From the NCBI GenBank assembly GCA_026706485.1, contig JAPOYR010000005.1, forward strand, positions 1 to 34,338: a DNA stretch of 34,338 nt, read 5' to 3'. Shown piece after piece: positions 5,158-19,158 of the stretch; positions within the stretch are counted from its first letter, which is position 1, and every line of letters begins with the position of its first letter. Both the position numbers and the translations under genes were made by a program. The notes below the pieces were generated by a model that ran no database searches, was not told where the DNA came from, and saw only the letters and a list, made by a program, of their open reading frames with translations. The stretch comes from Chloroflexota bacterium (GTDB lineage: Bacteria > Chloroflexota > UBA11872).

Positions 5158-5160
5158 TCG

Positions 5161-5991
5161 ATGAGCCGGCAGACGGGCACCAAGATTGTCTCCTGGAACA
5201 TCGCCCGCCGCAGTGAGCCCTGGAGGTGGCTGCTTGATATGGACGCGGACGTGGCGCTCTTGCAAGAGGCTGCGGAGCCCCCTGCAGAGGTCGCGTCACG
5301 GGTCGAGATCGACCCGGCGCCCTGGGATGTCTCCGGAGGCGACTGGGACTGGCGCACTGCGGTAGTCAGGCTATCGGACCGGGTCCGCGTGGATTGGATT
5401 AAGTCGGCGCCACTGACAGAGGCCGCGCGGGGTGAATTCGCAGTCAGTTGGCCCGGTACGCTGACCGCCGCCACGGTCACGCCGCCCGGCGGCGAGCCTT
5501 TCATCGTGGTTTCGATGTACGCCTGGTGGGAGAAACCCCACGCCTCAATCGGCGACTGGATCTTCTCGGACGCCGCAGCGCACCGCGTGATCTCCGACCT
5601 TTCCGGATTCATCGGCGATGAGCGCAACCACCGAGTTCTCGCTGCGGGAGACCTTAACAGTTTCCACGGTTATCACCCCCGTGGGTGGGCTTACTGGAAG
5701 GCCCGCTACCAAACGGTGTTCACGCGGATGGACGCGTTGGGCGTGTCACTGGTCGGACCACAGGTGCCGCATGGCCGGCAGGCCGACCCATGGCCAGATG
5801 AGTTGCCCAAGGGCAGCAAGAACGTGCCCACATTTCACTCAAATCGTCAGACGCCGGCGACTGCCACGCGTCAGCTGGACTACGTCTTCGCGTCGCGGGA
5901 GCTAGCCGAATCCGTGCGCGTACGCGCCTTGAACGAGCCTGAGCAGTGGGGGCCAAGCGACCACTGTAGTCTCGAAATAGAAGTGGCATGA
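5161..5991 (+). CDS. Endonuclease/exonuclease/phosphatase (EEP) family protein, copy 1 (intact)
   Basis: A 276-residue member of the Mg2+-dependent EEP (DNase I-like) fold. All hallmark motifs are visible: KIVSWNIA (N13), VALLQEAAEP (E36), AAGDLN (D164, N166), RQLDYVF (D240) and PSDH (D267, H268). Members cleave phosphodiester bonds in nucleic acids or lipids; the substrate cannot be read here. The ATG follows the previous stop by three bases, and the last codons overlap the HNH start as ATGA (5988-5991). The last 178 bases of the gene fall within a 256-base stretch repeated perfectly, inverted, at 22637-22892; the rest is only moderately similar to copy 2. Confidence 0.88.
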   Translation: MSRQTGTKIVSWNIARRSEPWRWLLDMDADVALLQEAAEPPAEVASRVEIDPAPWDVSGGDWDWRTAVVRLSDRVRVDWIKSAPLTEAARGEFAVSWPGTLTAATVTPPGGEPFIVVSMYAWWEKPHASIGDWIFSDAAAHRVISDLSGFIGDERNHRVLAAGDLNSFHGYHPRGWAYWKARYQTVFTRMDALGVSLVGPQVPHGRQADPWPDELPKGSKNVPTFHSNRQTPATATRQLDYVFASRELAESVRVRALNEPEQWGPSDHCSLEIEVA

Positions 5992-6065
5992 AGTTGCATA
6001 GTCCGGGATCGCCATATCGACGCTGGCGCTACCCAGACCCCACCTATTCGTCGCTCCGCTGGCGC
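5810..6065 (+). repeat. Left copy of a perfect 256-bp inverted repeat
   Basis: Base-by-base comparison with the reverse complement of 22637-22892 shows no difference over 256 bases, covering the end of the EEP gene and the start of the HNH gene. The first mismatch on the left is at 5809; on the right the copies diverge completely after 6065. Confidence 0.9.
5988..6065 (+). pseudogene. 5' stump of HNH nuclease gene, truncated at 6065
   Basis: The first 26 codons (MKLHSPGSPYRRWRYPDPTY, then SSLRWR) are identical to the start of the complete HNH gene at 22274-22714. After base 6065 the match stops dead and the sequence becomes the 3' part of a tyrosine recombinase on the other strand. The frame then runs on without meaning to about 6173. 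The gene lost its HNH domain by insertion, deletion or inversion at this point. Confidence 0.85.
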
Positions 6066-6655
6066 TGGCTGCGCTTGCCGCGCACCCGCAGGATCCCCGC
6101 CTCGAGATCCAGGTCGCCCAGCCGAATGTCGGCCAGCTCCGACGCCCGGATGCCGGTGTCGAAGAGCAGATAGAGCATCGCCCGTCCGCGCGCCCGCAAA
6201 CTGGCCGGTCCCGTCAACGCGGCCACCAGCCCTTTGAACTCCTCCGGGGTCAGGGGCTCGATGGGCTTGGTCTTGGGGCGCAGGGGGCTAAACCGCGCCA
6301 GCACGTGCTCCTCGGTGTACTCCTCCCGGTCGAGCCAAGCGGCGAAGGTCCGCAGCACGCGGCCGTGCAGGTTGATGGTGTAGTCGCTCAGCCGTCCGCC
6401 GGCGCGGACGTTGTGATGGTGGGCGAAGCGCACGTGCTCGCCCATCAGGTGCGCCACATAGGCGCGGACTTGGAGCAGGGTGAAGTCGGCCAAGGTGGGC
6501 GCCGCACCGGTGGTCGCCCAGCGCAGGTACGACGCCAGGACCGAGCGATAGGTCTCGATGGTCGTCGGGGCTGCGCCTTCGACGCGCAGCGCCACCAGGT
6601 AGTGGTCGACGGCCGTGTGCAGCGGCAGTTCGTGAACGTTGGTCATGCCCAACAT
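6044..6655 (-). pseudogene. Tyrosine recombinase/integrase, truncated before its catalytic C-terminus
   Basis: ATG at 6655 with GGAGG seven bases before it. It has an N-terminal SAM-like core-binding domain (HTAVDHYLVALRVEG, PTTIETYRSVLASYLRW) and the start of the catalytic domain with box I (LLFDTGIRASELADI, catalytic Arg present), followed by ILRVRGK. The next residues, RSQRQRSDE, come from the inverted HNH stump, and a chance stop ends the frame at 6044. The H-x-x-R box and the nucleophilic Tyr are missing, so the protein should not recombine DNA. It lies at the downstream end of the pilus/transfer gene train, the usual place for an element's integrase. Confidence 0.8.
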
Positions 6656-6866
6656 CGGAGGGCCTCCTCCCGCCCGCGGTCAAGCGACCGTGGGCGCAGT
6701 GGGCGCTCGGTGTGCCCGCCCGTGACCTGCCTGTCGCCTTCAGGGCTAGGGGCCTCCGCCAAGAGCTTTTCCGGTCGTCCCGGCCGCCGAACCTGTTATT
6801 CGGGCGGAGCCGCGCCGACCGACCCAGGCCCCAGACTTGAAGGGCTAGTGGCCTCGGGGCTTAGTA

Positions 6867-7307
6867 CTAGCCACCACCCACAGCGAGGCGCATTGCCATA
6901 TGCCCGGCGACACCGGTGGCGAGAAAGGGAGCAAATGGCAGCACTCTGTGGCACCCCGCTTTTGGCCTACACCACAGGAACACCGGCATGGCTGCGACGA
7001 CTGCAATACCAATAGCGACCACTATGACCACCATCCCGGTACCAATTCCCAGAACGCCCGCGAGCTTGATATCTCCGAGCCCAACGGCGTCGCGCGCAAC
7101 CAGCCGCGGAAGCGCAAGCAGCACCATTCCCAGGCCACTGCCCGCGAGTGCGTCCACCCACCAACCGCCGACTACCGCTAGCGCGCTGGTCGCGACCAGG
7201 CCGGTGACGATGAGCGTATTCGGGATTCGCCGCTCACGGATGTCGGTGATCGAGGCCAACAGCGCGACTCCGAGGGCGACCGAAAGCCCGATGAGCCCCG
7301 GATTCAC
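6867..7307 (-). CDS. tadV: Prepilin peptidase, A24 family (TadV/CpaA-like)
   Basis: A 146-residue inner-membrane aspartic protease that removes the leader from Flp pilin and pseudopilins. The two catalytic-Asp motifs are present: TDIRERRIPN (about residues 22-31) and GLGDIKLAGVLG (about 76-87). Several hydrophobic segments make up the remainder. There is no N-terminal methylase domain, as usual for the short Tad-linked form. It starts with GTG 7307 overlapping the TadC stop (GTGA). It is last in the Tad operon. The 211 bases between it and the integrase hold no gene. Confidence 0.85.
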   Translation of the reverse strand: MNPGLIGLSVALGVALLASITDIRERRIPNTLIVTGLVATSALAVVGGWWVDALAGSGLGMVLLALPRLVARDAVGLGDIKLAGVLGIGTGMVVIVVAIGIAVVAAMPVFLWCRPKAGCHRVLPFAPFLATGVAGHMAMRLAVGGG

Positions 7308-8221
7308 CCAAAGAGTCCCTTGGCGATGCTCAGGAGCATGGGAACAAAGATGAGCAGCATGAACGCGGGCAAGAAAGAAATAGCGATCACGAGTTGGGCC
7401 TTGGCCTCCTGCGACGCCACCGCCGCGTCGACAGCATTCTGCCGCTGGGCCCGCAGTCCCACTTCGTGCTGATTCAGGACGGCCTCGAGCTCCGCACCTA
7501 GCCGGCGCGCCTGCTTGATCGCCAGCACGAAAGCCTCGAACTCGGGTGATCCCAATCGGTCGGACGCCTCTTGGAGGGCCACGGTCAGCGGTACCCCGAG
7601 GCCGTAAGCGGCCATCGTCCGCCGGATCTCACGGACCAGCTCGGTAGATGCCGCGTCCGACGCGTCGTCCTCCACCAGCATGTGCAGCGCACGCTCGACG
7701 CCCATCCCAGTGCTGATCAGTCCACGCAACTCGGCAATCACGTCCGGCACCTCGGCCAGGATCCGCTTGCGACGAGAGGCCTTGCGAGCGTCGATCACGA
7801 TGGAGGGCGCCACGAAGGCCAGGAGCCCCGCGATTGGCGCGCCCACCATCATGGCCGGCACCCAAGGGATCAGAAGGGATAGCGCCGCGCCCACGCTCCC
7901 GCCAAACAACAGCTTCATGGCTACCACGGTCCGCGGCGTCACCCACGCCGACTCAATGCCTGCGTCACGGAGGTCCTGCGCGCTCACCAGGCGCTGATAG
8001 CGACCGATTCGCCGACCGACAACGTCGAGCATCGCGCCGATGTTGCCGGCCATACCCGCGGGTGACCGGTTCACGGCCTGCGAGTCGGACTCCGTCAAAC
8101 GAATCACCCGGCGCTGGCGGGCTCCACCGAACAAGTCGGCGACCCAGCTGAGCGCGACGGATACCAGAATGCTCACGGCACCTGCAGCCGCCATCGCGGT
8201 AATCACTGCTGGGCCGCTCAT
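7304..8221 (-). CDS. tadC: Tad pilus inner-membrane platform protein TadC (T2SS F family)
   Basis: A 305-residue protein starting at ATG 8221, which overlaps the TadB stop as ATGA; the longer upstream frame has no advantage. Architecture: N-terminal membrane segment (AAAGAVSILVSVALSW), a cytoplasmic part, two hydrophobic segments (MKLLFGGSVGAALSLLIPWV, PIAGLLAFVAPSIVI), then the T2SSF domain with DVIAELRGLISTGMGVERAL and ASDRLGSPEFEAFVLAIKQA, and a C-terminal membrane pair. With TadB it forms the platform on which CpaF drives pilus assembly. Confidence 0.87.
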   Translation of the reverse strand: MSGPAVITAMAAAGAVSILVSVALSWVADLFGGARQRRVIRLTESDSQAVNRSPAGMAGNIGAMLDVVGRRIGRYQRLVSAQDLRDAGIESAWVTPRTVVAMKLLFGGSVGAALSLLIPWVPAMMVGAPIAGLLAFVAPSIVIDARKASRRKRILAEVPDVIAELRGLISTGMGVERALHMLVEDDASDAASTELVREIRRTMAAYGLGVPLTVALQEASDRLGSPEFEAFVLAIKQARRLGAELEAVLNQHEVGLRAQRQNAVDAAVASQEAKAQLVIAISFLPAFMLLIFVPMLLSIAKGLFG

Positions 8222-9084
8222 GCTTGCGCTCGAGTGAAGCGGCGCCACAGGTACAGCCCGAGAAGTTCACACATCACGGCTCCGGGGAGCAGCACAAACT
8301 GCCCCAAGGGCTCGTCCATGACGGTGAACGACTCCGGGTTCGTCCCCCGCAGATACAGATGAATGACCGGGATCGCCACGGCAACCACGACAATCTGAAT
8401 CCGCAGGCCGCGAGTCTTGGCCCGCAGGTCCTCGTGCGCGCGGAGGTTGGCCGCAACGGTGGCCTCGAGCCCTTCCAGCGCTGTGACCGCGCGTCGCCCC
8501 GCCACGCCGTGCTCGATGGCCCGTGCCAGCACGCGATAGGCCAGGCGCAGGTGGCGGCCCGGCGTCCGCGCAGCGACCGCAGCCAACGATCCATGGAGTG
8601 GGCGGTCCAACCTGAACCGATTGGCGACCCACGCCAGATCGTCTCGCACCTGCGGCGTCGCCACGCCCTCGGCGGCGGCCCGCAGCGCTTCCATGTAGGT
8701 GGCTCCCGCTCGCAGGTGGGCGCCCAGCAATCGCAGCAGGACGAGCGCCTCACGATCGGCGCGCGCCCGTGCCCGCACCACGGCAGTACGGAGTACCACC
8801 CAAGGAGCGATCGCCCCGACAATTGCACCCACCGGCACGAGCGGCGGAGCGACCAGTCCGCCGATGACCGCACCGACGACGAGCACTCCACCGTTGATGA
8901 CCAGGAAGATCGGCGGCGTCATCGCCACTCCACCCTCATGCAGCTGGTCGGCAAGGCGGCCGAGGCGACGCTGGACCCAGCCGTGCATGGGTGAGTCGGA
9001 GGGCTGGCGGACCGGCATCAACGCCAGCGCGAAAACGACGACGCCGGCCGCAGCAAATCCGGCGGCGACGACGGCGAGATTCAC
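8218..9084 (-). CDS. tadB: Tad pilus inner-membrane platform protein TadB (T2SS F family)
   Basis: A 288-residue paralogue of TadC. GTG start at 9084 overlaps the CpaF stop (GTGA). It opens with a membrane segment (AAGFAAAGVVVFALALM), then a hydrophobic pair (VINGGVLVVGAVIGGLVAPP), the T2SSF domain (VLLRLLGAHLRAGATYMEAL, then FRLDRPLHGSLAAVAAR), and a final membrane pair (IVVVAVAIPVIHLYLRG, LLPGAVMCELLGLYLW). Order CpaF-TadB-TadC-peptidase is the classical Tad order. Confidence 0.86.
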   Translation of the reverse strand: MNLAVVAAGFAAAGVVVFALALMPVRQPSDSPMHGWVQRRLGRLADQLHEGGVAMTPPIFLVINGGVLVVGAVIGGLVAPPLVPVGAIVGAIAPWVVLRTAVVRARARADREALVLLRLLGAHLRAGATYMEALRAAAEGVATPQVRDDLAWVANRFRLDRPLHGSLAAVAARTPGRHLRLAYRVLARAIEHGVAGRRAVTALEGLEATVAANLRAHEDLRAKTRGLRIQIVVVAVAIPVIHLYLRGTNPESFTVMDEPLGQFVLLPGAVMCELLGLYLWRRFTRAQA

Positions 9085-10433
9085 AGCAGCACGCCCTGAA
9101 GCCGCAGCTTGCCCTGGACCTTGGGGCCCGGCTCATACCCGTCACTGGCCTGAAAGCCCACAACGTCGCCTGCCACGCGCTCCGCGCTGAATACCGGCCG
9201 CAGGTCATAGGTCCCGTCTGTCGCCATGCCCGCCAGCTCCATGACTTCGAGCACCGTGCGACGGCCATCGGCGAGCCGTCCCACATAGATCACCAGATCG
9301 AACGCGCGCGCAATGGGCTCGCGCAGCTCTCGCGCCGCGAAATCGCGGTACTCGCGGCGCACCAGCGTCTCGAGTCGTCCCAGGGCGTCGGCCGCCCCAT
9401 TCGCATGAATGGTCGTCCCCGACCCGGCGTGGCCGGTGTTCAGTGCCTCCAGACACACATAGGCCTCGCGGGGGCTACGAATCTCGCCCACCACCAGTCG
9501 ATCGGGCCGCATGCGCAGTGCGTTCGCCAGTAGGTCGGCGACCGACACCGTGCGGTCCTGATAGTCGACGGCCCGCTGACCATGGACGCACTGCAGGCGG
9601 ACCGTGTGGCCCTGGTGGGGCTCCGCCAGCTCGGTAGTGTCCTCGATGATCACCACGCGTTCGGTCGGAGGCACCGCCGCAAGGAGGCTGGCCAGCAGCG
9701 TCGTCTTGCCCGCCCCCGTGGCACCGGCCACAAGCACGTTTAAGCGGGCGCGAACGGCGGTGGCCAGAAACGCCGCCATCGCTTCACTTAACCCGCCCGC
9801 GGTGACCCAGTCCTCAGGGGCCTCTTCGCTTCCGATACGACCTGAGGCTTCGCGTCGCTCCGACCGAAGCGCCAGCCGCACGCGCCGGTGCTTGCGAATG
9901 GAGAGGCAGGGTCCGCCCACCGGCGCGATCACCAGATTGGCCCGGCTGCCGTCGGCCATGCGGGCATCCACGCAAGGGCTCTCCAGCGACAGGTGCCGCC
10001 CCACCAGCGCCGCGATCTTCTCCATCAGCGCCGACAAGTGCTGGGCATTTCGAAACCGCACCGACGTCGGCTCCAGCCGCCCCCGGCGCTCCACCCACAC
10101 CTCTGCCGGGCCGTTGACCAGCACGTCGGTGACGTCGGGGTCCGTCATCAGCAGTTGCAACGGTCCCAGCCCAGCAAGCTCGTCGCACAGGCCCTGAACC
10201 AAGTTCGGATCCGGAATCGCGCGCGGAAATGCCTCGGCGAGATGCGCATGGACAACCGTGCAGATGCGGTCGGTCCGGTCGGGCACGGGACTGAACGGGT
10301 CCAGTACCTGGGGGTCGAGTGTCTGTACCAGCCGCTCGCGCACTTGAGCCAGGAACGCTTCGTCCCTGAGTGTTCCGACCGTTGGCCTAGGGGGCTGGGG
10401 GCGGTCGGTCGTCGCAGCAACCGCTGCACTCAT
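9081..10433 (-). CDS. cpaF: Tad pilus assembly ATPase CpaF/TadA
   Basis: A 450-residue hexameric secretion ATPase of the CpaF/VirB11 group that powers pilin polymerisation in the cytoplasm. Seen: LQLLMTDPDVTDVLVNGPAE (family N-domain), Walker A AGATGAGKTTLL (about residues 235-246), VIIEDTTELAEPH (Asp box), ALRMRPDRLVVGEIR (Walker B region) and NTGHAGSGTTIHANGA (His box). Length and motif order are complete. Its ATG overlaps the CpaB stop as ATGA (10430-10433). Confidence 0.93.
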   Translation of the reverse strand: MSAAVAATTDRPQPPRPTVGTLRDEAFLAQVRERLVQTLDPQVLDPFSPVPDRTDRICTVVHAHLAEAFPRAIPDPNLVQGLCDELAGLGPLQLLMTDPDVTDVLVNGPAEVWVERRGRLEPTSVRFRNAQHLSALMEKIAALVGRHLSLESPCVDARMADGSRANLVIAPVGGPCLSIRKHRRVRLALRSERREASGRIGSEEAPEDWVTAGGLSEAMAAFLATAVRARLNVLVAGATGAGKTTLLASLLAAVPPTERVVIIEDTTELAEPHQGHTVRLQCVHGQRAVDYQDRTVSVADLLANALRMRPDRLVVGEIRSPREAYVCLEALNTGHAGSGTTIHANGAADALGRLETLVRREYRDFAARELREPIARAFDLVIYVGRLADGRRTVLEVMELAGMATDGTYDLRPVFSAERVAGDVVGFQASDGYEPGPKVQGKLRLQGVLL

Positions 10434-11152
10434 GGCCTGCCCTGCACGGTCTGATGCTGGCCAACGGAAGCGCTGCTGGTAGACACGTCAAGACGCTGAC
10501 TGAGCACGAAGGTGCCAGTGGGAATCCGCGCCACGTACCGCGGCACGTCCGCCGCGGGCACCGCCAGCACGGCAGCGCCGATCCGGACGGAGGCTCGGCG
10601 GGCCAAGCTGTCGTCGTCCGCAGGGCCCTGCAGGACCTCGCCGCGGTCGCTGCGCAGCTCCACCAGTAGCACGCCGCGACCGAGCACCTCCACCTGCTGC
10701 GGCACCGATCCGGACAGCGTCCGGTCGGCGGCGGGATCGGGGCTTGCCACCAGAACATCGACGACTTGGGAGGGCGGCACCACACCGCCCAACGCTTGCG
10801 TGGCATCGACCGGGATCGCGATCAGGGCGTGACCTGGTGGGATCGACGCGGCATGCGCCAGCAACGCGGCGCGGCGCGAGTCCGCGAGCTGTCCAGACAC
10901 GATGTACTGCCCGGCCGGAATCGGGCCGGTGGCAAAGGCGCCCACGGCCGCGTCGAGGGAGGTGAGCACGCCGGCCGGACGGGCCGCCGGATTGACCTCC
11001 CGCACGGAAAGGTCACCCGGCGAGAGCCGATCACCGACATCCAATGGCCGTGCTGCCGTGACCACCGGCGCCATTTGCATGCTCTGATAGACCAGCACGC
11101 CGGCGGCGAGACCCAGAAGCAGTCCGACGGCCAACAGCCAGTGCCGTTTCAT
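10430..11152 (-). CDS. cpaB: Flp pilus assembly protein CpaB (SAF domain)
   Basis: 240 residues if started at ATG 11152, which overlaps the preceding TGA and has GGGAGGA about six bases upstream; an in-frame GTG at 11167 would add only five residues. One N-terminal membrane anchor (HWLLAVGLLLGLAAGVLVY), then an SAF domain (AARPLDVGDRLSPGDLSVRE, GPIPAGQYIVSGQL) and an RcpC-like part (GHALIAIPVDATQALGG, VDVLVASPD). CpaB/RcpC usually works with the outer-membrane secretin; no secretin is encoded here, which fits a monoderm cell. Confidence 0.87.
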   Translation of the reverse strand: MKRHWLLAVGLLLGLAAGVLVYQSMQMAPVVTAARPLDVGDRLSPGDLSVREVNPAARPAGVLTSLDAAVGAFATGPIPAGQYIVSGQLADSRRAALLAHAASIPPGHALIAIPVDATQALGGVVPPSQVVDVLVASPDPAADRTLSGSVPQQVEVLGRGVLLVELRSDRGEVLQGPADDDSLARRASVRIGAAVLAVPAADVPRYVARIPTGTFVLSQRLDVSTSSASVGQHQTVQGRP

Positions 11153-12879
11153 CGGTCGTCCTCCCACGTCGTGGCGCCCTGGTAGCGCACAGTCACCGCA
11201 ATCGATCCCTCGAGATCGAAGTCTCGTGTCGTGCCGTCGCCGTAGGTCACCCGGATGCGCGTCCGCAGGTGCAACTCGTACGGCCGGAGTTGGCCATCAA
11301 CGACCGGCGTCACGTCGTTCCATTGCAGCCGGAGGGGCTCATCGGGTCCCCCGCTGGCGCCGGGCTGCGTCCCGCCGGGCCGGTCATTCGCCCCGCGAAC
11401 GAGAGTCCATTGAGTGAGCGCCACGGTCGCCGCGGGATCCGTGGCCGGCGGCTCGACGTTCGCGCGGACCCAGAGATCGATCGGCGCACCGCGCAGCACC
11501 TCGATGGCCGAGAAGCCCTGGACGTTGCCGGTCAGCGCCGATCCCGCCACCACAGGCGCCACGCGAAGGGCGCCGACGGGCGGGTCGTAGGCCGGCCTCG
11601 GCGTTGGCGCCGGAGGCCGAGGAGTATTGGACGGCGTCGGCGACACACGCGGCGGCTGTGGAGTTTCCGGCATCGGCGTCGGCTGATCCGGACCACTGGA
11701 CGGCTGTGGTTTCGGCCCCGGCCGGTTGGTCGGCGTAGGATCCGGTCCTGGATCACCGGGCGGTCTTGGGCCCGGTGGGTTCGTCGGCGTCGGATCCGTT
11801 AGCACGACCGTCGGCGTCGAAGTCACCGTCGGAGTCGGCGTCACCGTCACTGTCGGCGTCAGGCTGACGGTCGCCGTCGGCGTTGGAGAGGTCGTCACGC
11901 CCGTGGTGAATTGGACCCGATCGTCCTGGAAGAACACGATGCTCGTCGGGACAAAGCAGCCGTCCCGCTTGCGGTAATTCTGGTAGTAGGTGCCGGCCAG
12001 GAGTTCGCCGTTCGCGTCACGATTGCGGCCGTTGAAGGCGGCACCGTCGTAGGGGCTGCTTGCGCCCTTGGCGTAGCTGCCCAGATCGACGGCGTAGAGA
12101 TCGTTGGGCCGGTCGTCGGTGACCGTCTCATAGAGAATGCCGTCCTCCGTCTCAGTTTCCTGCGTGCCCGCGTAGTAGTCGGTCACCTTGTAGATGCCGG
12201 ACGGGATGGTGCAGGTCCCGCTGCCTGGTGGCACCGGCGTCGGCGAGGAGGTCGGCGTGGGGGATGCGGCCGGGCGTGGCGTAGCCGTGGGCCTGGGTGT
12301 GGGCGTCGGATGCGGGAGCGCCACCCAGCGGCGCCGCGTCTCGTAGTGCCCGGGCACCGTGACGACCTCTTCCGTCACGTGGTAGCCGTCGATCCAGCGA
12401 CGCTCGGTCGTCCAGTAGCCCGGCACCCAGACCGTGACGACCTCTTCGCGTTGCACCTTGACCCAGCGACCGTGATCCTCCCAGCGCGAGGTGTCGACCC
12501 AGACCTCATAGCTCTCCCAGTGCGACGTATCGACCCAGACCGTGTAGGGCTGCGTGGCGTCGTCGTCCCAGAGCTCCACCCAATGGCCGCTCTCCACCCA
12601 GCGCCTGCGCTCGTCCCAGTAGCCGGAGTCCACCCACACCATGTGGGATTCCCATACGAGTTCCGAAACAATGTTGGTGCGGGTCTCGTATTGGCCCGGT
12701 ACCCAGACGGTGTGGTCTTCCCACCGGCCCGGCACCCAGACCGTCCGGGTTTCGACAAACGGCTCTATCCAGACGGATTCGGTTTCCCAGTAGCCATGGT
12801 CCGCTCGCGCCTCGGCGGCGAGTCCGACTGCCAGAACCAGGCCGAGGACCGCCACCAGACACGAGGTCGCGCGCGGCAT
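11149..12879 (-). CDS. Secreted Trp-repeat protein with Pro/Thr linkers, within the Tad operon
   Basis: A 576-residue protein with a Sec signal peptide (TSCLVAVLGLVLAVGLAAEA, cleavage near ARA-DHG). Residues about 28-195 are roughly eleven imperfect 11-14-residue units built on a W-V-(P/D)-x-(G/S)-x-(W/Y)-x-x-(R/H/E) theme, for example TVWVPGRWEDH, VWVDSGYWDERR, VWVDTSHWESYE and VWVPGYWTTERR. A Pro/Thr linker follows, then a domain with two cysteines (CTIPSGIYKVTDYYAG to CFVPTSIVFFQDDRVQF), a second long TPTPT linker (about 330-430) and a beta-rich C-terminal domain. I do not recognise a named family. Surface location and pilus association are inferred from the signal peptide and its position between the Ig-like protein and CpaB. 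Confidence 0.8.
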   Translation of the reverse strand: MPRATSCLVAVLGLVLAVGLAAEARADHGYWETESVWIEPFVETRTVWVPGRWEDHTVWVPGQYETRTNIVSELVWESHMVWVDSGYWDERRRWVESGHWVELWDDDATQPYTVWVDTSHWESYEVWVDTSRWEDHGRWVKVQREEVVTVWVPGYWTTERRWIDGYHVTEEVVTVPGHYETRRRWVALPHPTPTPRPTATPRPAASPTPTSSPTPVPPGSGTCTIPSGIYKVTDYYAGTQETETEDGILYETVTDDRPNDLYAVDLGSYAKGASSPYDGAAFNGRNRDANGELLAGTYYQNYRKRDGCFVPTSIVFFQDDRVQFTTGVTTSPTPTATVSLTPTVTVTPTPTVTSTPTVVLTDPTPTNPPGPRPPGDPGPDPTPTNRPGPKPQPSSGPDQPTPMPETPQPPRVSPTPSNTPRPPAPTPRPAYDPPVGALRVAPVVAGSALTGNVQGFSAIEVLRGAPIDLWVRANVEPPATDPAATVALTQWTLVRGANDRPGGTQPGASGGPDEPLRLQWNDVTPVVDGQLRPYELHLRTRIRVTYGDGTTRDFDLEGSIAVTVRYQGATTWEDDR

Positions 12880-12882
12880 CGT

Positions 12883-13806
12883 CTAGGACGCCCTTCGGTT
12901 GACCGCAACCCCCGCCCAGAGCTGGTCGGACGCGCGCCCATCGAACACCAGACCCACGGCGATCTGCGTCACGCTCGGATCGGTCAAGAGGGATCGCGCC
13001 TCGTCGCCCATCAGCGTCGACACGTCGTCGAACTCGGTCCCGAGCCAGGCGGCCGGCGGGCCCACGGGCCAGAGCCGGACGGACCACCCACCGTCCTCCA
13101 CCGCGCGGAGCTGACGGGCCTGCGGCCGGACCTGGTCCATCCCGCCCTGGCCCAGGGCATGCGCGATCAGGGTCCGCACGGCGCCGCGCCGCGCGTCGTC
13201 GACCGCGACCGCTGGCCGACCCAGCTGCTCGCGGATCCATGTCACCCAGTCGAGCAGCCGCTGCTCCTGGCGGACCAGTTCGTCCGGATCCGGCTGTACG
13301 ACGGCCCTGGTGGGCGCGACGGGGTCCGCGTCACCGACCACGACGGCAATGGACGCATCGAATGGCGGCAGGACCGCATGCACCCGTGACTGGCCCGGCG
13401 TCCGCCCGGTGACCACGCCGGTCGGTTCGACTGACAGCACCTCGTCGTCAGTCGCAGACCAACGCACCGGGGCGTCCTCGCGGGACGTGCCATCCGCTAG
13501 GGCTGCAACGACCTTGAGTCCGATCCGCTCGCCGACGGCCAGCGTGACCGGCTCGTCCACGCCCGCGGCGATGGTCAGGGCGGTGACGGCGATCCCCGCG
13601 GACGGGGCTGGTGCCTCGTGGCCGGCGGGCGCGACCATAGCCGTCACCGGTGGCGCGACTTGGTCGGATGCCGACCCACTAGCGGAACCAAGCATCCAGC
13701 CGGTCAACGTACTCATCCCTACTGTCATGACGGTCATCGAGGCCACCAGCAGCAACGGCAACCGGACCGAGCGACCAGTGATCGACCGATATCGCGGACT
13801 TCGCAT
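12883..13806 (-). CDS. Membrane-anchored Ig-like (BIG_2) protein of the pilus operon
   Basis: 307 residues. One N-terminal membrane anchor (LPLLLVASMTVMTVGMSTL), a Pro/Ala linker, then a bacterial Ig-like domain with the BIG_2 signature (PVRWSATDDEVLSVEPTG, VVTGRTPGQSRVHAV), a charged helical part (EQRLLDWVTWIREQLGRPAV), and a C-terminal domain ending PSVTQIAVGLVFDGRASDQL plus WAGVAV. That last part vaguely recalls CAP/SCP-like extracellular domains. The gene starts four bases after the TadG stop. A role as a minor pilus component or adhesin is inferred from position. Confidence 0.75.
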   Translation of the reverse strand: MRSPRYRSITGRSVRLPLLLVASMTVMTVGMSTLTGWMLGSASGSASDQVAPPVTAMVAPAGHEAPAPSAGIAVTALTIAAGVDEPVTLAVGERIGLKVVAALADGTSREDAPVRWSATDDEVLSVEPTGVVTGRTPGQSRVHAVLPPFDASIAVVVGDADPVAPTRAVVQPDPDELVRQEQRLLDWVTWIREQLGRPAVAVDDARRGAVRTLIAHALGQGGMDQVRPQARQLRAVEDGGWSVRLWPVGPPAAWLGTEFDDVSTLMGDEARSLLTDPSVTQIAVGLVFDGRASDQLWAGVAVNRRAS

Positions 13807-13810
13807 GGCA

Positions 13811-14314
13811 TCAGCTCCTAGTCATGGCGCTGGCGGCTACCCGCAGCGCCTGGGTATTGGAGAGGCCCGCCAGCCGCAGGAGTCCGGTGCGCACCGGGAC
13901 CTCGGCGCGGATGGACACGGTGGGGGCGGCGGCGGTGCGGTTGCGGATCGGATCAATTCCGCCTGGATTGGTCACGGCGATTTCGGCGGCCCCGGCCACT
14001 GCGGTGGCTGTGGTTCCCGCGATCTGCCGGTCCAGCGGTTGTAGGTTGAGCCGCAGGTATTCGCGGGCGACGCCAGCTGCCGTATCCGCCAGTCGCACCT
14101 TGCCCGTAGCCGCCAGATGGCCGGCGTCGATGTGCCCGGCGGCCACAACGGCGGCCTGTTCCAGGGCATCGACGAACCGCAACCGCTGGACCCTGATCGC
14201 GCCGATGTCGACCACGAGCGCCGCCACCAGCAGGGTCAGGCTGAGCAACGCCAGCGTCATGCCCGAGACGCCGCCGGACTCGTCGGCAAGGGCGGAACGC
14301 GACCACCGAGTCAC
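13811..14314 (-). CDS. tadG: TadG-like pseudopilin
   Basis: 167 residues. The N-terminus ADESGGVSGMTLALLSLTLL followed by VAALVVDIGAIRVQR is the cytoplasmic-lead plus membrane helix of TadE/TadG-like proteins. Then comes a helical stretch rich in Ala (DALEQAAVVAAGHIDAGHL, typical of TadG-like proteins, compare DAAALAGA) and a beta-rich end (PTVSIRAEVPVRTGLLRL). The start overlaps the TadE-like stop (14311-14314). Confidence 0.75.
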   Translation of the reverse strand: MTRWSRSALADESGGVSGMTLALLSLTLLVAALVVDIGAIRVQRLRFVDALEQAAVVAAGHIDAGHLAATGKVRLADTAAGVAREYLRLNLQPLDRQIAGTTATAVAGAAEIAVTNPGGIDPIRNRTAAAPTVSIRAEVPVRTGLLRLAGLSNTQALRVAASAMTRS

Positions 14315-14736
14315 CGGTTCACCTCGCCCCGGGTGGTGAAGTGCGAGCGGAGCGGCACTTCGAGTTCCAGCAGGAAGGGGATGCGAACGCGCTGCGTGCT
14401 TTGCATCTCGACCGTCACCGGCTCGCGCCAGTCCACGGTGGCGGGATGGATCGTGAGTTGCGCGTCGCCGGCCTCCAGCCCGGCGGCGGCCAGGTCTGCC
14501 GCCACCCGGGCGCGAAGAGCAGCGCTATCGCCGCCCTCCTGCGCTGCCTGGCGGGCCGCCGCCGCCGCCACGTGGTTCTGGGCCTGCCAGGCGCCCAGCA
14601 GCTGGGCGAAGGCAATGACGGCCAGCAGAACGGGCACGACGACGAGCATCGCCAGGACCGCCTCGGCGCCCACCGCTCCGTGCTCGGTACCCGGCGCGGC
14701 TCGGCGGCACCGAATCCACCACTGTGACCGGCGCAC
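14311..14736 (-). CDS. tadE: TadE-like minor pseudopilin
   Basis: 141 residues with the TadE signature: a positively charged lead, GAVGAEAVLAMLVVVPVLLA (E is the conserved residue at the start of the helix) and AQLLGAWQAQNHVAAAAARQ. The C-terminal part is soluble (TIHPATVDWREPVTVEM). It is processed by the prepilin peptidase and assists pilus assembly. The start is four bases after the Flp pilin stop. Confidence 0.78.
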   Translation of the reverse strand: MRRSQWWIRCRRAAPGTEHGAVGAEAVLAMLVVVPVLLAVIAFAQLLGAWQAQNHVAAAAARQAAQEGGDSAALRARVAADLAAAGLEAGDAQLTIHPATVDWREPVTVEMQSTQRVRIPFLLELEVPLRSHFTTRGEVNR

Positions 14737-14739
14737 TTC

Positions 14740-14931
14740 CTAAAGCCCGGTCAGTTCCGTCAGGACGCCCTCGAGATAGGTCGATAGACCGTTGTTCCAG
14801 GCCACGATCGCCGCGCCGAAGATGGCCACGCCGATCCCGGCGATCACGATGTATTCGGTGGCGTTGCCGCGCTCGTCGGTGACGATGGCCCGGAGACCGG
14901 CCACCAGCCGGCCTTTGATCTGCACAAGCAT
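14740..14931 (-). CDS. flp: Flp/TadA-type IVb major pilin
   Basis: 63 residues, the standard size. Lead MLVQIKGRLVAGLRAIVTDE, then RGNATEYIVIAGIGVAIFGA. The G/N-A-T-E-Y motif is the cleavage/packing signature of type IVb pilins, with the Glu and Tyr present, followed by a 20-residue hydrophobic helix and a short tail. GAGGA lies six bases before the ATG. It heads the Tad operon; the leader region upstream holds two hairpins (14979-14997 and 15019-15062). Confidence 0.93.
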   Translation of the reverse strand: MLVQIKGRLVAGLRAIVTDERGNATEYIVIAGIGVAIFGAAIVAWNNGLSTYLEGVLTELTGL

Positions 14932-14978
14932 TGGCGTTCCTCGCAGTCGTACGATGGACAGAGGTCGGCGAAGACCAA

Positions 14979-14997
14979 GGCCGCGAGCTTCGCGGCC
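14979..14997 (-). promoter_or_regulatory. Hairpin in the flp leader
   Basis: GGCCGCGA-GCT-TCGCGGCC is a perfect 8-bp stem with a 3-base loop, 48 bases upstream of the pilin ATG. It could stabilise the abundant pilin mRNA or act as part of a terminator pair with the next hairpin. Confidence 0.35.
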
Positions 14998-15018
14998 GGT
15001 CCTCGCGGGTCGGATCCG

Positions 15019-15062
15019 GCGCCGGCGGGGTCGGCAACCACACCTTGTCCCCGCCGGCGCCT
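15019..15062 (-). terminator. Hairpin after replication-relaxation gene (terminator or attenuator)
   Basis: GGCGCCGGCGGGG (15019-15031) and CCCCGCCGGCGCC (15050-15062) form a perfect 13-bp stem with an 18-base loop, starting seven bases after the stop of the upstream gene. No T-run follows on the - strand, so termination strength is uncertain. Confidence 0.4.
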
Positions 15063-15069
15063 CAGTGAT

Positions 15070-15954
15070 TCATGTCGGGCTGCCCTCCTCTAATTCGGCG
15101 CACGGCGGTCGCGCCGTGCGCAATACAGTCTGTCGGTGGTCACTGTTGGCAAACGCGGCCTCCCATACCGGGCCCAGCGGGTTGGCCAGGAACGCTGGCT
15201 CCCAGGCCACCGCAATCCGCAGCACGTGATTCATGTCCCCACCGCGGGCGTCCGCCAACTGGACCAGGGCGGCCTCGACGGCCTGGCGAAGGCTGACCAC
15301 GCGCGAGCGGCGGTTCGTGGTGATGCGAAGTTCGGGAAAGACCGGGAATTCCGAGCGCCACGCGCCCGATTGCCAGAAGCCCGCGTACCGCCGCACTTTC
15401 TGTGCATAGCGGCGGAGCTCCTCCGTGCCGCGGTCAATCTCGAAGAAGAGCCAGTGGTCGCCGGCCGGGTTGCGTACCTGGGCGAGGCCGTCGGGGTTGA
15501 TCACCTGCCACCGTCCGCTCGCCCGGTACCGCATCCGCAGGTGTGGATCGGAGTTCCAGCGCACGAGTTGATGGTCTTCGGTGGACTCCAGAACCTGCCA
15601 GAGAGCGATGAAGCAACGGTTCACCGACAGCTGGTGCCGCGTCCGCTGTGGCGTGAAGGTCTCGGGATCGCGGACGTATGGGATCTGGGCGCGCGGCGCG
15701 TCGTCGATGTGCTCCAGGGCGTCGGCACCCTTGGCCGACAGGCCGTACACGTAGCCGCCGCTGCCACCGCCCACGCCGCCGCAGGCCGACCGGGCCCGCA
15801 CCACGAGGCCCTGCTGGTGGAGCGTCGTCAAGCAGCGCTGACAGGCTCGCCGGCTGACCGGGTGATAGAACACCTGATGCACTTGCGCAGCGTCCATGTA
15901 GCGGTGGGCCCGCAGCAGGCGCAGGACCTGGACCTGGCGGCGGGCCCAGATCAT
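15070..15954 (-). CDS. Replication-relaxation family protein
   Basis: 294 residues. The N-terminal winged helix (VQVLRLLRAHRYMDAAQVHQ, RRACQRCLTTLHQQGLVVRA) and a C-terminal part with HQLSVNRCFIALWQVLE, PDGLAQVRNPAGDHWLFFEID and RYAQKVRRYAGFWQSG match the replication-relaxation (Replic_Relax, PF13814) type found on plasmids, ICEs and phages of Gram-positive-like bacteria. The E-x-D and Y-x-x-x-x-x-R-Y features resemble a degenerate PD-(D/E)xK fold. It probably binds DNA at the element's origin. It follows the coupling ATPase by 208 bases on the same strand. Confidence 0.72.
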   Translation of the reverse strand: MIWARRQVQVLRLLRAHRYMDAAQVHQVFYHPVSRRACQRCLTTLHQQGLVVRARSACGGVGGGSGGYVYGLSAKGADALEHIDDAPRAQIPYVRDPETFTPQRTRHQLSVNRCFIALWQVLESTEDHQLVRWNSDPHLRMRYRASGRWQVINPDGLAQVRNPAGDHWLFFEIDRGTEELRRYAQKVRRYAGFWQSGAWRSEFPVFPELRITTNRRSRVVSLRQAVEAALVQLADARGGDMNHVLRIAVAWEPAFLANPLGPVWEAAFANSDHRQTVLRTARPPCAELEEGSPT

Positions 15955-16162
15955 GGGGAGACCTGCGGAATCAGGATGATAGTTACGCGAGGCGACGGTG
16001 GGGGTTTTGTCAGAACATTAGTCAACGACCGGTAGTTCCCTTGATTCGATATGCTTCGGAATGTCGTGTTCACGACACGACGGTGTCGGGCGGCGAGCCG
16101 ATGTAGCCGGCGATGTAGCGGGCGATGCCGGAACGGCCGTGTCGCCGCGGCTCGCGGAGCAG
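15955..16162 (-). other. Spacer with operator-like palindrome TGTCGTG-TT-CACGACA
   Basis: A 208-base gap between the ATPase and the replication-relaxation gene. Bases 16062-16077 form a perfect 7+2+7 palindrome, about 110 bases before the ATG at 15954. It could be a repressor site or a nick/binding site for the element's own DNA-binding protein. No gene is supported here. Confidence 0.35.
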
Positions 16163-17590
16163 TCACGCCTGGTTCCTCGGATTGCCGGGCACGCCGCCGC
16201 TTGGCCGCGCAGCCAGATCGGCCAGACCGGGCGACTCGTCCGGCGAGTCGTCGGATCCATCGTTCGTTGCCGGGGCACCCTCGGACAGGTCGGCGGTGGA
16301 TTCTCTAGGCTCTGCCTCGGTCTTGGTCAGCGAGCCGTAGCGCGCGGCCACGAGCTCGTCCAGATCCGTCCGCCGTTGCCCGAAGGTCGCACGGGCCTGT
16401 TCGCGAATGCGCGTCGCTCGTCCCGGGTCGCCCGGCGGGATCGGCGGCACTGTGGCCTCGAAGGGTCGGGCCGGCCGGTTGTCGACCAGCGTCTTCACCG
16501 CCATGTGATAGGCCGGCAGGTCGTCCAGCTCCGCCGGGGTCAAGGCCGGTGCCATCTCCATGGCGAAGTGCCGCGTCTGCTCCCGCAGGCCGCCGAACAC
16601 CACGTGCGTGCGGGTGTTGAGCAGTACGCTGCTGATGATGCCGGCCAGCCGGGGCTGCCCGGGGTTCTGCGTGGCCACCGCCAGCCCCACGCCATAGCTG
16701 CGGGAGCGCTCGAAGAAGGCGCCCATGTCGCGTCCGGTGTCCAGGAACTCCTGGAACTCGTCGATGATCGCGAAGTAGGGCGCCCGATCACCGGCCGGCC
16801 GCCGTAGCACCGCCTGCCAAAAGTGCGTCACCAGGATGCTGCCCAGCAGGCGCGACCCGGCGGCGCCCAACGCGGTGTCCGCCTGGTCCAGATTGACCAG
16901 CACGATCTCGCCCCGCTGTAGCACCCCGTCCCAGCGCACCGCCGAGCGCGGTTGCACCAGGATGTTGCGCACCCGCGGGTCTTGCACCAGCATGGCCATC
17001 CGCCGCAGCGCGCCGCCGAACGTCATCTCGAATTGGCGGACCGAGATGCGATCGACCTGATTCCGCCAGTAGGAGCGCAGGAACGGGTCGCTGACGTTGG
17101 GCATCAGGCTCTCGCGCCATTCGCGGTCGATGAACAGCCGCTCTAGGTCGAGCATGGTCGGCTTGATCTGCGGATTGGCGGCCAGGGTGCGGAAGCCGTA
17201 GGCGAATGCCTGCGACATGGAGGTGCCCCAGAGAAAGTCCTCGCCGCGCACCAGCTCGCGCAGCAGCGAGTAGACGGCCATGGCCACGCGGTCTCCCTCA
17301 TCCGCGTCGCGCACGTCGAGGGGGTTCAGGCCCACTGGCCAGTCGGTGTCTGCAAAGTCGAGCGCCACCACGTCCGCCTCACGGCCGGCGGGAACGGCGC
17401 CCAGGAGCGACCGCGCCAGGTCGCCCTTGGGATCCAACAGCAGGACGCCGTGGCCTCGCCGGATGGCCGACAGGGCGAACCAGAATAGGAACGTGCTCTT
17501 GCCCACGCCGGTGGGGCCGACCACGAACAGATGCTTCAGTGCGTCGGCAGGCTTCAATCCATACGTCGCGCCGGCGTGGCGGTCAGCCAT
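16163..17590 (-). CDS. VirD4/TraG-like conjugative coupling-type ATPase
   Basis: 475 residues. Walker A GPTGVGKSTF (residues 25-34), GVLLLDPKGDLARSLL, Walker B YFAIIDEFQEFLDTG (about 274-288), SRSYGVGLAVATQNPGQP and LLNTRTHVVFGGLREQ. This set is the TraD/TraG C-terminal ATPase of type IV coupling proteins and related HerA-type DNA pumps. No transmembrane segment is visible in this protein. The acidic tail (EPRESTADLSEGAP) is probably disordered. The start overlaps the upstream gene by eight bases. Inferred role: moving DNA, or feeding substrate to a secretion apparatus, with the upstream partner as its N-terminal half. Confidence 0.85.
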   Translation of the reverse strand: MADRHAGATYGLKPADALKHLFVVGPTGVGKSTFLFWFALSAIRRGHGVLLLDPKGDLARSLLGAVPAGREADVVALDFADTDWPVGLNPLDVRDADEGDRVAMAVYSLLRELVRGEDFLWGTSMSQAFAYGFRTLAANPQIKPTMLDLERLFIDREWRESLMPNVSDPFLRSYWRNQVDRISVRQFEMTFGGALRRMAMLVQDPRVRNILVQPRSAVRWDGVLQRGEIVLVNLDQADTALGAAGSRLLGSILVTHFWQAVLRRPAGDRAPYFAIIDEFQEFLDTGRDMGAFFERSRSYGVGLAVATQNPGQPRLAGIISSVLLNTRTHVVFGGLREQTRHFAMEMAPALTPAELDDLPAYHMAVKTLVDNRPARPFEATVPPIPPGDPGRATRIREQARATFGQRRTDLDELVAARYGSLTKTEAEPRESTADLSEGAPATNDGSDDSPDESPGLADLAARPSGGVPGNPRNQA

Positions 17591-18329
17591 CGGGCGTTTG
17601 TCCGACGAACAGGTCGGTGTCGACCGGCACCTGACCCCGGCGGGGGCTGTTGCGGATCCACACGCGCCGGCCGCGAAACCCGACGAGGTCGCCCCGAGGC
17701 CGGCCGGTCAGGGCGACGGCTTCTTCAACGCTGGCGGTGAATCTGGCGCCTTGCCAGACCTGTTGCTCCGCGACGGCGCGGAGGTGCGCGCGGCGACGCC
17801 ACGGGCGCCGCGCTACCAGTCTGTTGAACGGGCCGGCGCACTCCTCGAAGACCGCGCGGACCAGCTTGAGGCGGGCGTGGGCACTCCGCCGGTCCGGTGC
17901 CCCAACGACGATGTGCACCTCGAGATCGATCAGGCGATCCCTAACCTTCGCCTCGGCCGCGCCGGCCCCGGCCAACTGTTCGCGCGTGGCGCCTCGCTCC
18001 GTCGGCGTATGCGAATCGCCGGAAAGCAAGAACGCGAGCATTTCGCGCAAGGCCCCGCCAGCGCCGCGGCTGAGGTCTCGCAGCACCTGACCTTGTCCCG
18101 GCCAACGGCCGGCGCGCAGGGACTGGACCGCAGCCCATCCCCACTGATGGGTCCTATCCTTGATGGGGCTGGCGACGGTTCGGATCACAACCAGTTCATC
18201 GGGCCCTAGCCCGTGGAACGCCAGGTCCAGCTGCGGAGCGCCCTCCAGGTCGTCCCACAGTGGCAGCACCCAGGACCGCTTCGGTCGGAGATAGGCGCCC
18301 ACCAGATAGCGGTTCTGGCCCGTGGTCAT
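17583..18329 (-). CDS. Probable partner/N-terminal module of the coupling ATPase
   Basis: 248 residues when started at ATG 18329, which overlaps the preceding stop as ATGA; a longer frame to 18410 exists without support. I know the type from context: in related loci a protein with DRLIDLEVHIVVGAPDRRSA, a FEECAGPFNRLV segment and a final RGDLVGFRGRRVW turn precedes or is fused to the TraG-like ATPase. No catalytic motif is visible. A soluble scaffold or DNA-loading subunit is likely; the function is inferred. Confidence 0.6.
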   Translation of the reverse strand: MTTGQNRYLVGAYLRPKRSWVLPLWDDLEGAPQLDLAFHGLGPDELVVIRTVASPIKDRTHQWGWAAVQSLRAGRWPGQGQVLRDLSRGAGGALREMLAFLLSGDSHTPTERGATREQLAGAGAAEAKVRDRLIDLEVHIVVGAPDRRSAHARLKLVRAVFEECAGPFNRLVARRPWRRRAHLRAVAEQQVWQGARFTASVEEAVALTGRPRGDLVGFRGRRVWIRNSPRRGQVPVDTDLFVGQTPDG

Positions 18330-18706
18330 GTCGTCGCCTCGGGCTGGGATTCGTGGATGGGATCGGGCGCATCGCGCCGCCCAGCGAGCGTCGCGAGCAC
18401 TCGTGGCCACGAACTGCCAATTCGGCGGCGTTCGGCGGCGTCCAGGTGCTCGGCGTAGCCTCGCGCGGCCGTCTGGGTGCGCGAGAGCAGGCCCTCGAGG
18501 CGCCGACGCTCGTGGCGTGCCTTCGCAAGCTGCTGACGAAGGCGCTCAGTCTCGTGGCTGAGGTCGACGATCTGGCCTCGGGCTGCCGCGAGGTCGCGCT
18601 GGGCTTCCGCCGCGGTGTCGACGGCGGCCAGTCGCCGCTCGAGCAGCACCGCCAATCGGTCTCGCTCCTGCTCGACGGCTCGCAGGCGCCCCAGCTGTCG
18701 TGACAC
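18326..18706 (-). CDS. Coiled-coil protein, first gene of the transfer/pilus gene train
   Basis: 126 residues from GTG 18706. Residues about 5-100 have heptad-like spacing with many Leu, Arg, Glu and Ala (QERDRLAVLLERRLAAVDTA, QIVDLSHETERLRQQLAKAR), giving a long coiled coil. There is no signal peptide or membrane segment. Its stop overlaps the next start (ATGA). The start codon is uncertain because only a weak purine-rich run precedes it. It probably scaffolds the ATPase complex. Confidence 0.6.
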   Translation of the reverse strand: MSRQLGRLRAVEQERDRLAVLLERRLAAVDTAAEAQRDLAAARGQIVDLSHETERLRQQLAKARHERRRLEGLLSRTQTAARGYAEHLDAAERRRIGSSWPRVLATLAGRRDAPDPIHESQPEATT

Positions 18707-19158
18707 GGCACATCCGCCTTTCGTCGGTCAGCGGCCTGTAGGCCACCGCCGGACCGGGCGGCATCTCCGGCGCCCGGTTCAGCGGCGTATGGCAACCGTA
18801 GTGGCGCGGGAAACGGCCGGGAATCCAGGATTCCGTAAATCCACGCGGGAGAATTCAGTCGACCTTGGCAGTGAGATTTAACGGGCGGATGGGAAGCTCG
18901 TTCCACGGCTAGCCGGCATCTCTGACGAGCACCGGAATAAGGCCCCGGGCCCGAGCACCCAGGATCGCGACCTTGCCGGCGCACGGGCCGGAATCGTCAG
19001 ACGCGAATTGGCCGCGTAGGGCCGGCACGTCTTCGCCACCGCGCGGTGGTGCGACCGTGCGATTTCAGGCCGAACCCATGTCGTCAGGTGGCCTCCTGGG
19101 CGCTTCCCGACCGGCTAGATGTACTGACCACAGAGCAACTGTGTTGGCGCGTCGAGGG
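18707..19158 (-). promoter_or_regulatory. Non-coding region upstream of the gene train, with palindrome GGAATCC-A-GGATTCC
   Basis: 452 bases with no supported gene. It must hold the promoter of the - strand operon, but no convincing -35/-10 pair was found. Bases 18820-18834 form a perfect 7+1+7 palindrome about 115 bases upstream of the first start codon, a reasonable operator. Confidence 0.4.

Follow-up and report, generated by a model that had tools for sequence, protein, structure and literature searches.

The window analyzed here is the whole of contig JAPOYR010000005.1 (34,338 bases) from a Chloroflexota bacterium whose genome (G000) comprises 3.37 Mb in 13 contigs. It carries an operon that joins a VirD4/TraG-like coupling ATPase and a Replic_Relax protein (RR) to the genes of a Tad pilus. 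We found that the same genome holds a second locus of VirB4-type channel genes, that the two loci are co-distributed among related genomes, that most of both gene sets form one continuous operon in a sister family, and that one palindromic site precedes both loci. We consider it likely that the two loci belong to a single conjugation system, in which the Tad pilus would serve donor–recipient contact alongside, and not instead of, the VirB4 channel. Judging from these gene sets, a Tad pilus probably takes part in the mating of some bacteria.

Co-distribution of the Tad operon and a VirB4 locus

We mapped gene order in a family sample of 19 genomes, this genome included, by tblastn of the window proteins against loci from the family genomes. 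The operon genes had the same order in six of the 19, which belong to two genera (this genome, G004, G009, G013, G014 and G016). For prt, which lies beside the ATPase gene and evolves fast, G013 and G014 gave no match above the tblastn limit; gene calling recovered it in G013, and the gene finder did not report it in G014. Among the 19 genomes, the CpaF of this operon and the operon ATPase were found in the same six, and the Tad operon never occurred without the ATPase–RR module; the only other genome with a CpaF-like match was G007, and that match is distant and probably a VirB11. The association of a Tad pilus with a DNA-transfer module, which an earlier note had proposed from this contig alone, is supported by its recurrence in these six genomes and, as described below, in the sister family, in further families of the phylum and on three actinomycete plasmids; the two modules are thus not neighbors in this genome only.

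A search with a profile of VirB4-like proteins (A5) placed a VirB4 gene of this genome at G000:C2:47789–50158, within a second locus at about 44505–56078 of that contig. One such gene each was found in G003, G004, G009, G013, G014 and G016 (~615–645 bits); other, higher-scoring VirB4 types occur in G004, G007, G008 and G014. All six Tad-positive genomes and G003 carry the VirB4 locus, and the remaining 12 lack it (6/6 Tad-positive versus 1/13 Tad-negative genomes; hypergeometric 7/27132, P about 3e-4, uncorrected for phylogeny). G016 has the two loci ~47 kb apart on a single contig. The VirB4 protein contains TraC and AAA_10 domains and matched NF045971 (CD1110 type, 9e-58, equivalog cut-off not reached). 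The locus further encodes a VirB2-like protein of 110 aa with a signal peptide and hydrophobic helices, a PrgI/VirB3-like protein (0.0046, under the cut-off), a 421-aa VirB6-like membrane protein of the CD3337/EF1877 mobilome family (1.2e-5, under the cut-off), an M23 peptidase (wall hydrolase, 1.9e-28), a CpaE-like ParA protein (TIGR03815, 3.8e-8, under the cut-off), and ImmA-like, HTH_3 and LuxR regulators; a XerC/D-like integrase lies near it in most of the seven genomes. VirB4 and mating-pore proteins, the marks of a conjugative type IV secretion system (T4SS), are therefore present at this second locus, outside the window.

The earlier note had seen no VirB4, which is correct for the window and not for the genome, and had suggested that the Tad apparatus itself exports DNA in place of a VirB channel. 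The operon does lack VirB4, its CpaF is a relative of VirB11 (TIGR02788, 7e-61), and a coupling ATPase with no visible membrane anchor could dock on the Tad platform. However, genes for VirB4, PrgI-like and VirB6-like proteins and a wall hydrolase co-occur in the same six genomes and adjoin the Tad genes in relatives, and the element would then hold two machines; we now regard export through the Tad apparatus as very unlikely. With a two-locus layout, a VirB4 missing from a given window is no evidence against conjugation.

Tad–VirB4 clusters in other families and on plasmids

In the sister-family genome G023, most of both gene sets form a continuous operon on one strand, in the order LuxR, VirB2-like, PrgI-like, VirB4, VirB6-like, fused coupling ATPase, flp, tadE, tadG, Ig, Wrep, cpaF, tadB, tadC and pilD. 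In a sample of 400 genomes, 11 loci of this CpaF subfamily outside the family had enough contig around them (G023 included), and VirB4 stood beside Tad genes in 10 of them. Tad genes followed by VirB4 were seen in G383, G234, G060, G244, G209, G365, G081 and G188. In G060 and at G383:C119, a wall hydrolase of SLT/M23 type (or a homologue) comes after VirB4 and precedes a coupling ATPase and Replic_Relax; G060 also has a tyrosine integrase. In a tree, the VirB4-linked CpaFs formed one group apart from the ordinary CpaFs (support 84/85). The matches listed were compared by eye; among them, no VirB4 was seen within 20 kb of an ordinary CpaF, and the same-contig pairs of an ordinary CpaF and a VirB4 (G355, G288 and G187) were at least 190 kb apart.

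The combination was also found on three Streptomycetaceae plasmids (NZ_CP108778.1, L209; NZ_CP108785.1, L213; NZ_CP081497.1, L212), where VirB4, a coupling protein, Replic_Relax and Tad genes lie within about 25 kb. On the first of these, a 325-kb linear plasmid of Embleya sp. NBC_00896, genes for PrgI, VirB4, a conjugative DNA transfer ATPase and a replication-relaxation protein run in one direction, and those for SAF/CpaB, CpaF, TadB/TadC and TadE/TadG lie several kb past the replication-relaxation gene. Two of the three plasmids were typed as 'non-mobilizable' by MOB-suite. A CpaF of the VirB4-linked group together with Replic_Relax might serve as a marker for conjugative elements where a plasmid with the full set is typed in this way. 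A separate pattern scan of genome contigs, with patterns that were too short, returned one Frankiaceae locus.

Several observations speak against the idea that the Tad genes are cargo, an adhesion or surface-colonization trait linked to a conjugative or mobilizable element and not used for mating. VirB4 directly follows cpaB in relatives, in six genomes the candidate relaxase is encoded in the same operon as the pilus, the VirB4-linked CpaFs form their own group in the tree, a CpaE-like protein is encoded within the VirB4 locus, and the same promoter-proximal site is found at both loci. We therefore consider the cargo explanation unlikely, although Tad pili are classically adhesins (PMC4322843) and the Tad genes of the Embleya plasmid stand apart from its relaxase gene. 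The ATPase–RR pair also occurs without Tad genes in six paralogous elements (three in this genome and one each in G001, G002 and G014), which speaks for cargo in that transfer modules do not need Tad.

Arrays of direct repeats, each ~83 bases long, were observed between the ATPase and RR genes of Tad-less elements (G000:C10:370344–370891, G000:C7:82957–83421, G001:C31:303814–304269 and G002:C48:41295–41829), and none was seen in the Tad operon. These arrays are reminiscent of the direct-repeat binding site of the MOBC relaxase TraX.

A palindromic site at both loci

The palindrome TACGGAATCCTGGATTC, followed ~21 bases on by a TANNNT box, precedes the Tad operon in 6/6 genomes (with one mismatch in G016) and the VirB4 operon in 7/7, as well as ATPase–RR elements. 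When one mismatch at most was allowed, the pattern had 33 sites in nine family genomes, each of which carries at least one of these modules, and 0 in the other ten; the reversed pattern, used as a control, gave 0 in the 19 genomes. Most of the remaining sites precede an integrase-module small gene (c18), a Replic_Relax fragment or a small helix-turn-helix gene (c13 type); two sites in G014 fall outside these classes assigned so far. We regard TACGGAATCCTGGATTC as a candidate shared operator or promoter that, to judge from its placement, may control both loci. Since close c13 relatives were found in the same seven VirB4-positive genomes, the c13-type genes, with LuxR and HTH_3, are candidate regulators.

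The c13 family (~150 aa) has many copies or fragments per genome (e.g. G009:C26:12926, G000:C2:33101 and G004:C35:274443); close copies occur only in VirB4-positive genomes, and some are preceded by TACGGAATCCTGGATTC. It could be an element-borne regulator family.

Proposed mechanism and points of weighing

In a conjugation system of two loci, the window operon would supply the DNA-processing half (a relaxase candidate and a split coupling ATPase) and the Tad pilus, and the second locus would supply the channel half, with VirB4, the PrgI/VirB3-, VirB2- and VirB6-like proteins, M23, a CpaE-like ATPase, regulators and an integrase. RR would nick the DNA at an origin of transfer (oriT), and the split coupling ATPase would hand the relaxase–DNA complex to the VirB4/VirB6 channel. 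CpaF, TadB and TadC would extend and retract the Flp pilus, drawing donor and recipient together, and the palindrome common to both loci would switch them on together.

The relaxase in this scheme is most likely RR, which would nick and pilot the DNA of the element. Its family, PF13814 Replic_Relax, is the one named MobC/MOBC relaxase by CONJscan (PMC5357655), which makes the statement of the earlier note that no relaxase is visible doubtful. MOBC relaxases are restriction-endonuclease-like proteins with an N-terminal winged helix (PMC12857230). An AlphaFold2 model of RR (pLDDT, the predicted local distance difference test, 79.5) contained an evident winged helix of the MarR type (Z about 12), and its best PDB matches were winged-helix regulators. 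Residues P154, D155, E172, D174 and K186 were invariant across 14 sequences, and the resulting P154-D155, E172-x-D174 and K186 pattern fits a PD-(D/E)XK site, without proving one.

Several findings weigh against this interpretation. The relaxase assignment hangs on the family name: RR stayed under the cut-off of the curated NCBIfam family MobC_subf (5.5e-6), and the nuclease matches of its second domain, XisH (2okf) and PaqCI, were weak (E 0.01–0.02). No oriT was identified, and the hairpins between RR and flp and the upstream palindrome are candidates only. No transmembrane segment was seen by eye in the coupling ATPase or in prt, which leaves the ATPase with no visible membrane anchor. The Tad, VirB4 and coupling ATPase parts are not strictly obligate partners, because the VirB4 locus of G003 stands without Tad or coupling ATPase and because five Tad–VirB4 clusters (G244, G209, G365, G081 and G188) have no recognized coupling ATPase nearby. 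The attachment (att) sites and empty sites that the earlier note had proposed to look for were searched, and neither was found: the block ends showed no direct repeat beyond 9–12 bases in any of the six genomes, and no clean empty site was obtained because the flanks are not syntenic, the G004 flank recurring in G013, G016 and G010 on contigs other than the Tad contig. Finally, the VirB6-like gene of this genome (G000:C2:46452–47714) contains a single in-frame stop, whereas the copies of relatives are intact; this strain may be helper-dependent or inactive.

This stop, the truncated integrase and the insertion sequences around the operon, and the split into two loci could alternatively point to a decaying or domesticated remnant, once conjugative and now a contact or protein-secretion apparatus or one that is being lost. 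We find a remnant highly improbable, since the genes of the operon are intact with mostly low ratios of nonsynonymous to synonymous substitution rates (dN/dS), relatives have intact copies of VirB4 and of most other genes of the second locus, and an exchange between sister species is a sign of recent mobility. Compared with G004, the nearest Tad-positive relative, homology forms a conserved block at 6863–19121 that takes in the upstream region (91.6% identity across 12,288 bases); no operon gene carried a stop, and dN/dS was 0.14–0.36 for most, the values for flp and pilD lying above this range with very few synonymous changes.

The exchange was seen between the sister species G009 and G013. 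Their rpoB genes are 98.3% identical, and their flanks and integrase modules 95–98%, but the Tad locus and the VirB4 locus showed identities of only 77.9% and 79.7%, respectively. Both loci have therefore been replaced from outside in one or both of these species. Horizontal movement is also indicated by flanks that differ among genomes, and integrases are found beside the VirB4 locus and near three of the Tad loci.

Organization of the operon in the window

The operon consists of 14 intact open reading frames running from 18706 to 6867 on the minus strand, in the order CC, prt, ATPase, RR, flp, tadE, tadG, Ig, Wrep, cpaB, cpaF, tadB, tadC and pilD (Table 1). The single-strand row of 14 genes described in the earlier note is confirmed, with all reading frames intact and the order repeated in five further genomes. 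The mostly 4–8 base overlaps that it reported are also present, at eight junctions (CC/prt, prt/ATPase, tadE/tadG, Wrep/cpaB, cpaB/cpaF, cpaF/tadB, tadB/tadC and tadC/pilD); real gaps of 208 bases between ATPase and RR and 138 bases between RR and flp occur as well. Its description of a full Tad set is inexact, TadZ/CpaE and a secretin both being absent from the operon. The truncated tyrosine recombinase that it placed at the operon end exists, and it lies outside the conserved block, which stops at 6863.

Table 1. Features of the Tad operon region, in operon order (positions in the window)
Feature	Position	Strand	Basis or remark
Palindrome TACGGAATCCTGGATTC	18821..18837	-	~115 bases ahead of CC, with a TANNNT box ~21 bases further on
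CC, 126-aa coiled-coil protein, first gene of the operon	18326..18706	-	Coiled-coil matches only; conserved in six operons
prt, 248 aa, coupling ATPase N-terminal half as a separate gene (by homology)	17583..18329	-	Fused homologue in G014:C73
VirD4/TraG-like coupling ATPase domain	16163..17590	-	Walker A at residues 25–32; T4SS-DNA_transf 0.004, under the cut-off
ATPase–RR intergenic stretch	15955..16162	-	Equal length in six genomes
RR, Replic_Relax, MOBC-type relaxase candidate	15070..15954	-	PF13814 2.5e-34, 119.5 bits (cut-off 25.3); winged helix and nuclease-like domain
RR–flp intergenic region	14932..15069	-	Two strong hairpins (~15018–15061 and ~14968–15006); six genomes
Flp-like prepilin, 63 aa	14740..14931	-	GNATEY motif and hydrophobic helix; conserved in six operons
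TadE-like pseudopilin	14311..14736	-	Pfam TadE 0.055, under the cut-off; synteny
TadG-like protein	13811..14314	-	Pfam Tad 0.011, under the cut-off; synteny
Ig-like surface protein (Big_2, weak)	12883..13806	-	Pfam 0.0042; conserved in six operons and G023
Wrep, secreted, candidate pilus-associated surface protein	11149..12879	-	Conserved in six operons and G023
CpaB/RcpC	10430..11152	-	Pfam SAF 1e-12, RcpC 1.5e-9
CpaF/TadA motor ATPase, VirB4-linked subfamily	9081..10433	-	T2SSE 1.7e-43; tree
TadB platform protein	8218..9084	-	Pfam T2SSF 6.6e-7
TadC platform protein	7304..8221	-	Pfam T2SSF 3.5e-12
TadV prepilin peptidase (pilD), last gene of the conserved block	6867..7307	-	Pfam Peptidase_A24 8.2e-12
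Truncated tyrosine recombinase, outside the conserved block	6044..6655	-	Pfam Phage_integrase 3.3e-10

The fused 724-aa protein of G014:C73 covers both prt and the coupling ATPase, its residues 7–249 being 40% identical to prt and its residues 261–697 matching the ATPase, and the coupling ATPase of G023 is likewise fused. On this homology, the 'partner' protein is the N-terminal half of the coupling ATPase, encoded here by a gene of its own. The ATPase showed weak and distant similarity to TrwB, DotL and TraD, and its plasmid homologues are annotated as 'type IV secretory system conjugative DNA transfer'; its name, like those of TadE and TadG, whose Pfam scores also fall under the cut-off, was given from position, and in the case of the ATPase from homology as well. 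An AlphaFold2 model of the ATPase (six rows) reached a pLDDT of 37 and was discarded. No relative of the ATPase was found on viral contigs, and phages yielded only distant homologues (23–26% identity; Bacillus phage G gp156 and SPO1-like phages). The coiled-coil protein CC is possibly a relaxosome or coupling accessory.

The two gaps within the operon differ in character. Between ATPase and RR lies a box, GAATGTTCnGACAAAA (16005–16020), followed downstream by GCGTAACTAT; among the loci compared, the box is confined to the six Tad loci, and the stretch is possibly an internal promoter. The region between RR and flp showed a DNA folding z of -3.5. The 15–16-base loop (TCGGCAACCACACCT) of its hairpin at 15018–15061 is inverted between the two genera and the stem is kept, and this hairpin is possibly an invertible loop or a hairpin of single-stranded DNA. 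We regard the region as a candidate for an oriT, an attenuator or another regulatory element. An Rfam search of the window gave no match.

CpaF/TadA, TadB/TadC, CpaB and the prepilin peptidase, by which a Tad pilus is recognized, were all identified by Pfam, and CpaF also matched TIGR03819 (2.4e-73). By its gene content, the operon is a monoderm-type Tad pilus assembly line that is complete save TadZ/CpaE, a CpaE-like protein being encoded in the VirB4 locus. The Flp-like protein had no Pfam Flp match, and its GNATEY motif is one residue shorter than the published G/XXXXEY spacing (PMC4322843). Wrep contains Trp-rich repeats (Trp-Val motifs) and a Thr/Pro-rich stretch and matched no Pfam family; it is possibly a pilus-tip or surface protein. 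The truncated recombinase, which is related to the integrase next to the VirB4 locus (d3-profile match 7e-45), was rejected as a part of the system on account of its position outside the block common to G004. An IS110 element lies likewise outside this block, and insertion sequences flank the operon.

Comparison with known systems

The prevailing view is that monoderm conjugation systems have no conjugative pilus and make contact via adhesins (PMC12102498). The monoderm T4SS of mating-pair formation type FATA (VirB4, PrgI/VirB3, VirB6, VirB1 and VirD4) resembles the present system, which has a CD1110-type VirB4, PrgI-like and VirB6-like proteins, M23 and a VirD4-like ATPase. It differs in its use of adhesins for contact (PMC12102498), where the present system has a built-in Tad pilus and a split over two loci. 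The streptococcal integrative and mobilizable elements of class 8 similarly place a VirD4 coupling protein beside a Rel_PF13814/MobC relaxase, but they are mobilizable elements with serine integrases and no pilus (PMC5357655).

Linear plasmids of Cutibacterium acnes already provide a case of a single element with both a tad locus and conjugation genes; these monoderm mobile elements carry a Tad/Flp locus with VirB4, FtsK/TraB and TcpC homologues, and their pilin was detected on the surface (PMC5696575). FtsK/TcpC-type genes are found there in place of the VirD4-like ATPase and Replic_Relax seen here; the authors leave the link between pilus and conjugation open, and no family-wide linkage or shared regulation was shown (PMC5696575). 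The IncI plasmid R64 is a further precedent: its thin pilus, according to its citation in PMC12102498, is a type IV pilus required for liquid mating, and as far as that citation goes an element-encoded type IV filament there too aids donor–recipient contact beside a T4SS. R64 itself belongs to diderms and combines a PilV-type pilus with an IncI T4SS, in contrast to the Tad pilus and monoderm-type VirB4 system described here.

In Micrococcus luteus, a Flp/Tad pilus is tied to DNA movement in a monoderm, and its Tad genes are required for natural transformation (PMC4322843). By analogy, the Tad pilus of the window could import DNA, with the ATPase–RR pair processing incoming DNA or being unrelated. 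The M. luteus pilus, however, acts in uptake with ComEA/ComEC, and no relaxase, coupling ATPase or VirB4 is involved (PMC4322843), whereas here a relaxase-type protein, a coupling ATPase, VirB4 and an integrase point to export from an element, and the loci, unlike core genes, have a patchy distribution and have been exchanged. We consider DNA uptake very unlikely and retain the two-locus conjugation system as the likely explanation.

A broader proposal, which we judge to be evenly balanced between right and wrong, is that these loci represent a class of conjugation systems that is widespread among monoderms of this phylum and of Actinomycetota. In such a class, a dedicated Tad lineage with its own CpaF group would be the mating pilus, inherited with VirB4, a coupling ATPase and a MOBC-type relaxase, and here divided into two loci joined by one regulatory site. 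Our search of open-access papers turned up neither a description of a Tad lineage linked with VirB4–VirD4–MOBC across families nor one of a two-locus version. If the proposal is true, this Tad lineage would give monoderms a retractile mating pilus, and the question left open for the C. acnes plasmid (PMC5696575) would become general and testable.

Further features of the window

A terminal overlap indicative of a circular contig was sought at the contig ends, and none was found. The operon and its insertion sequences are bracketed by an inverted repeat of 950 bases (85% identity; 5119–6071 and 22631–23583), which carries a gene of the endonuclease/exonuclease/phosphatase family and has a third copy at G000:C11:199488. 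Beyond it, three pairs of duplicated segments (24779–24967/27256–27441, 25426–25800/27456–27829 and 26936–27223/28916–29190) lie in a region of small open reading frames beside a tRNA-Arg(tct) gene (24286–24371), and related stretches occur in elements of G004:C27 and G008:C36.

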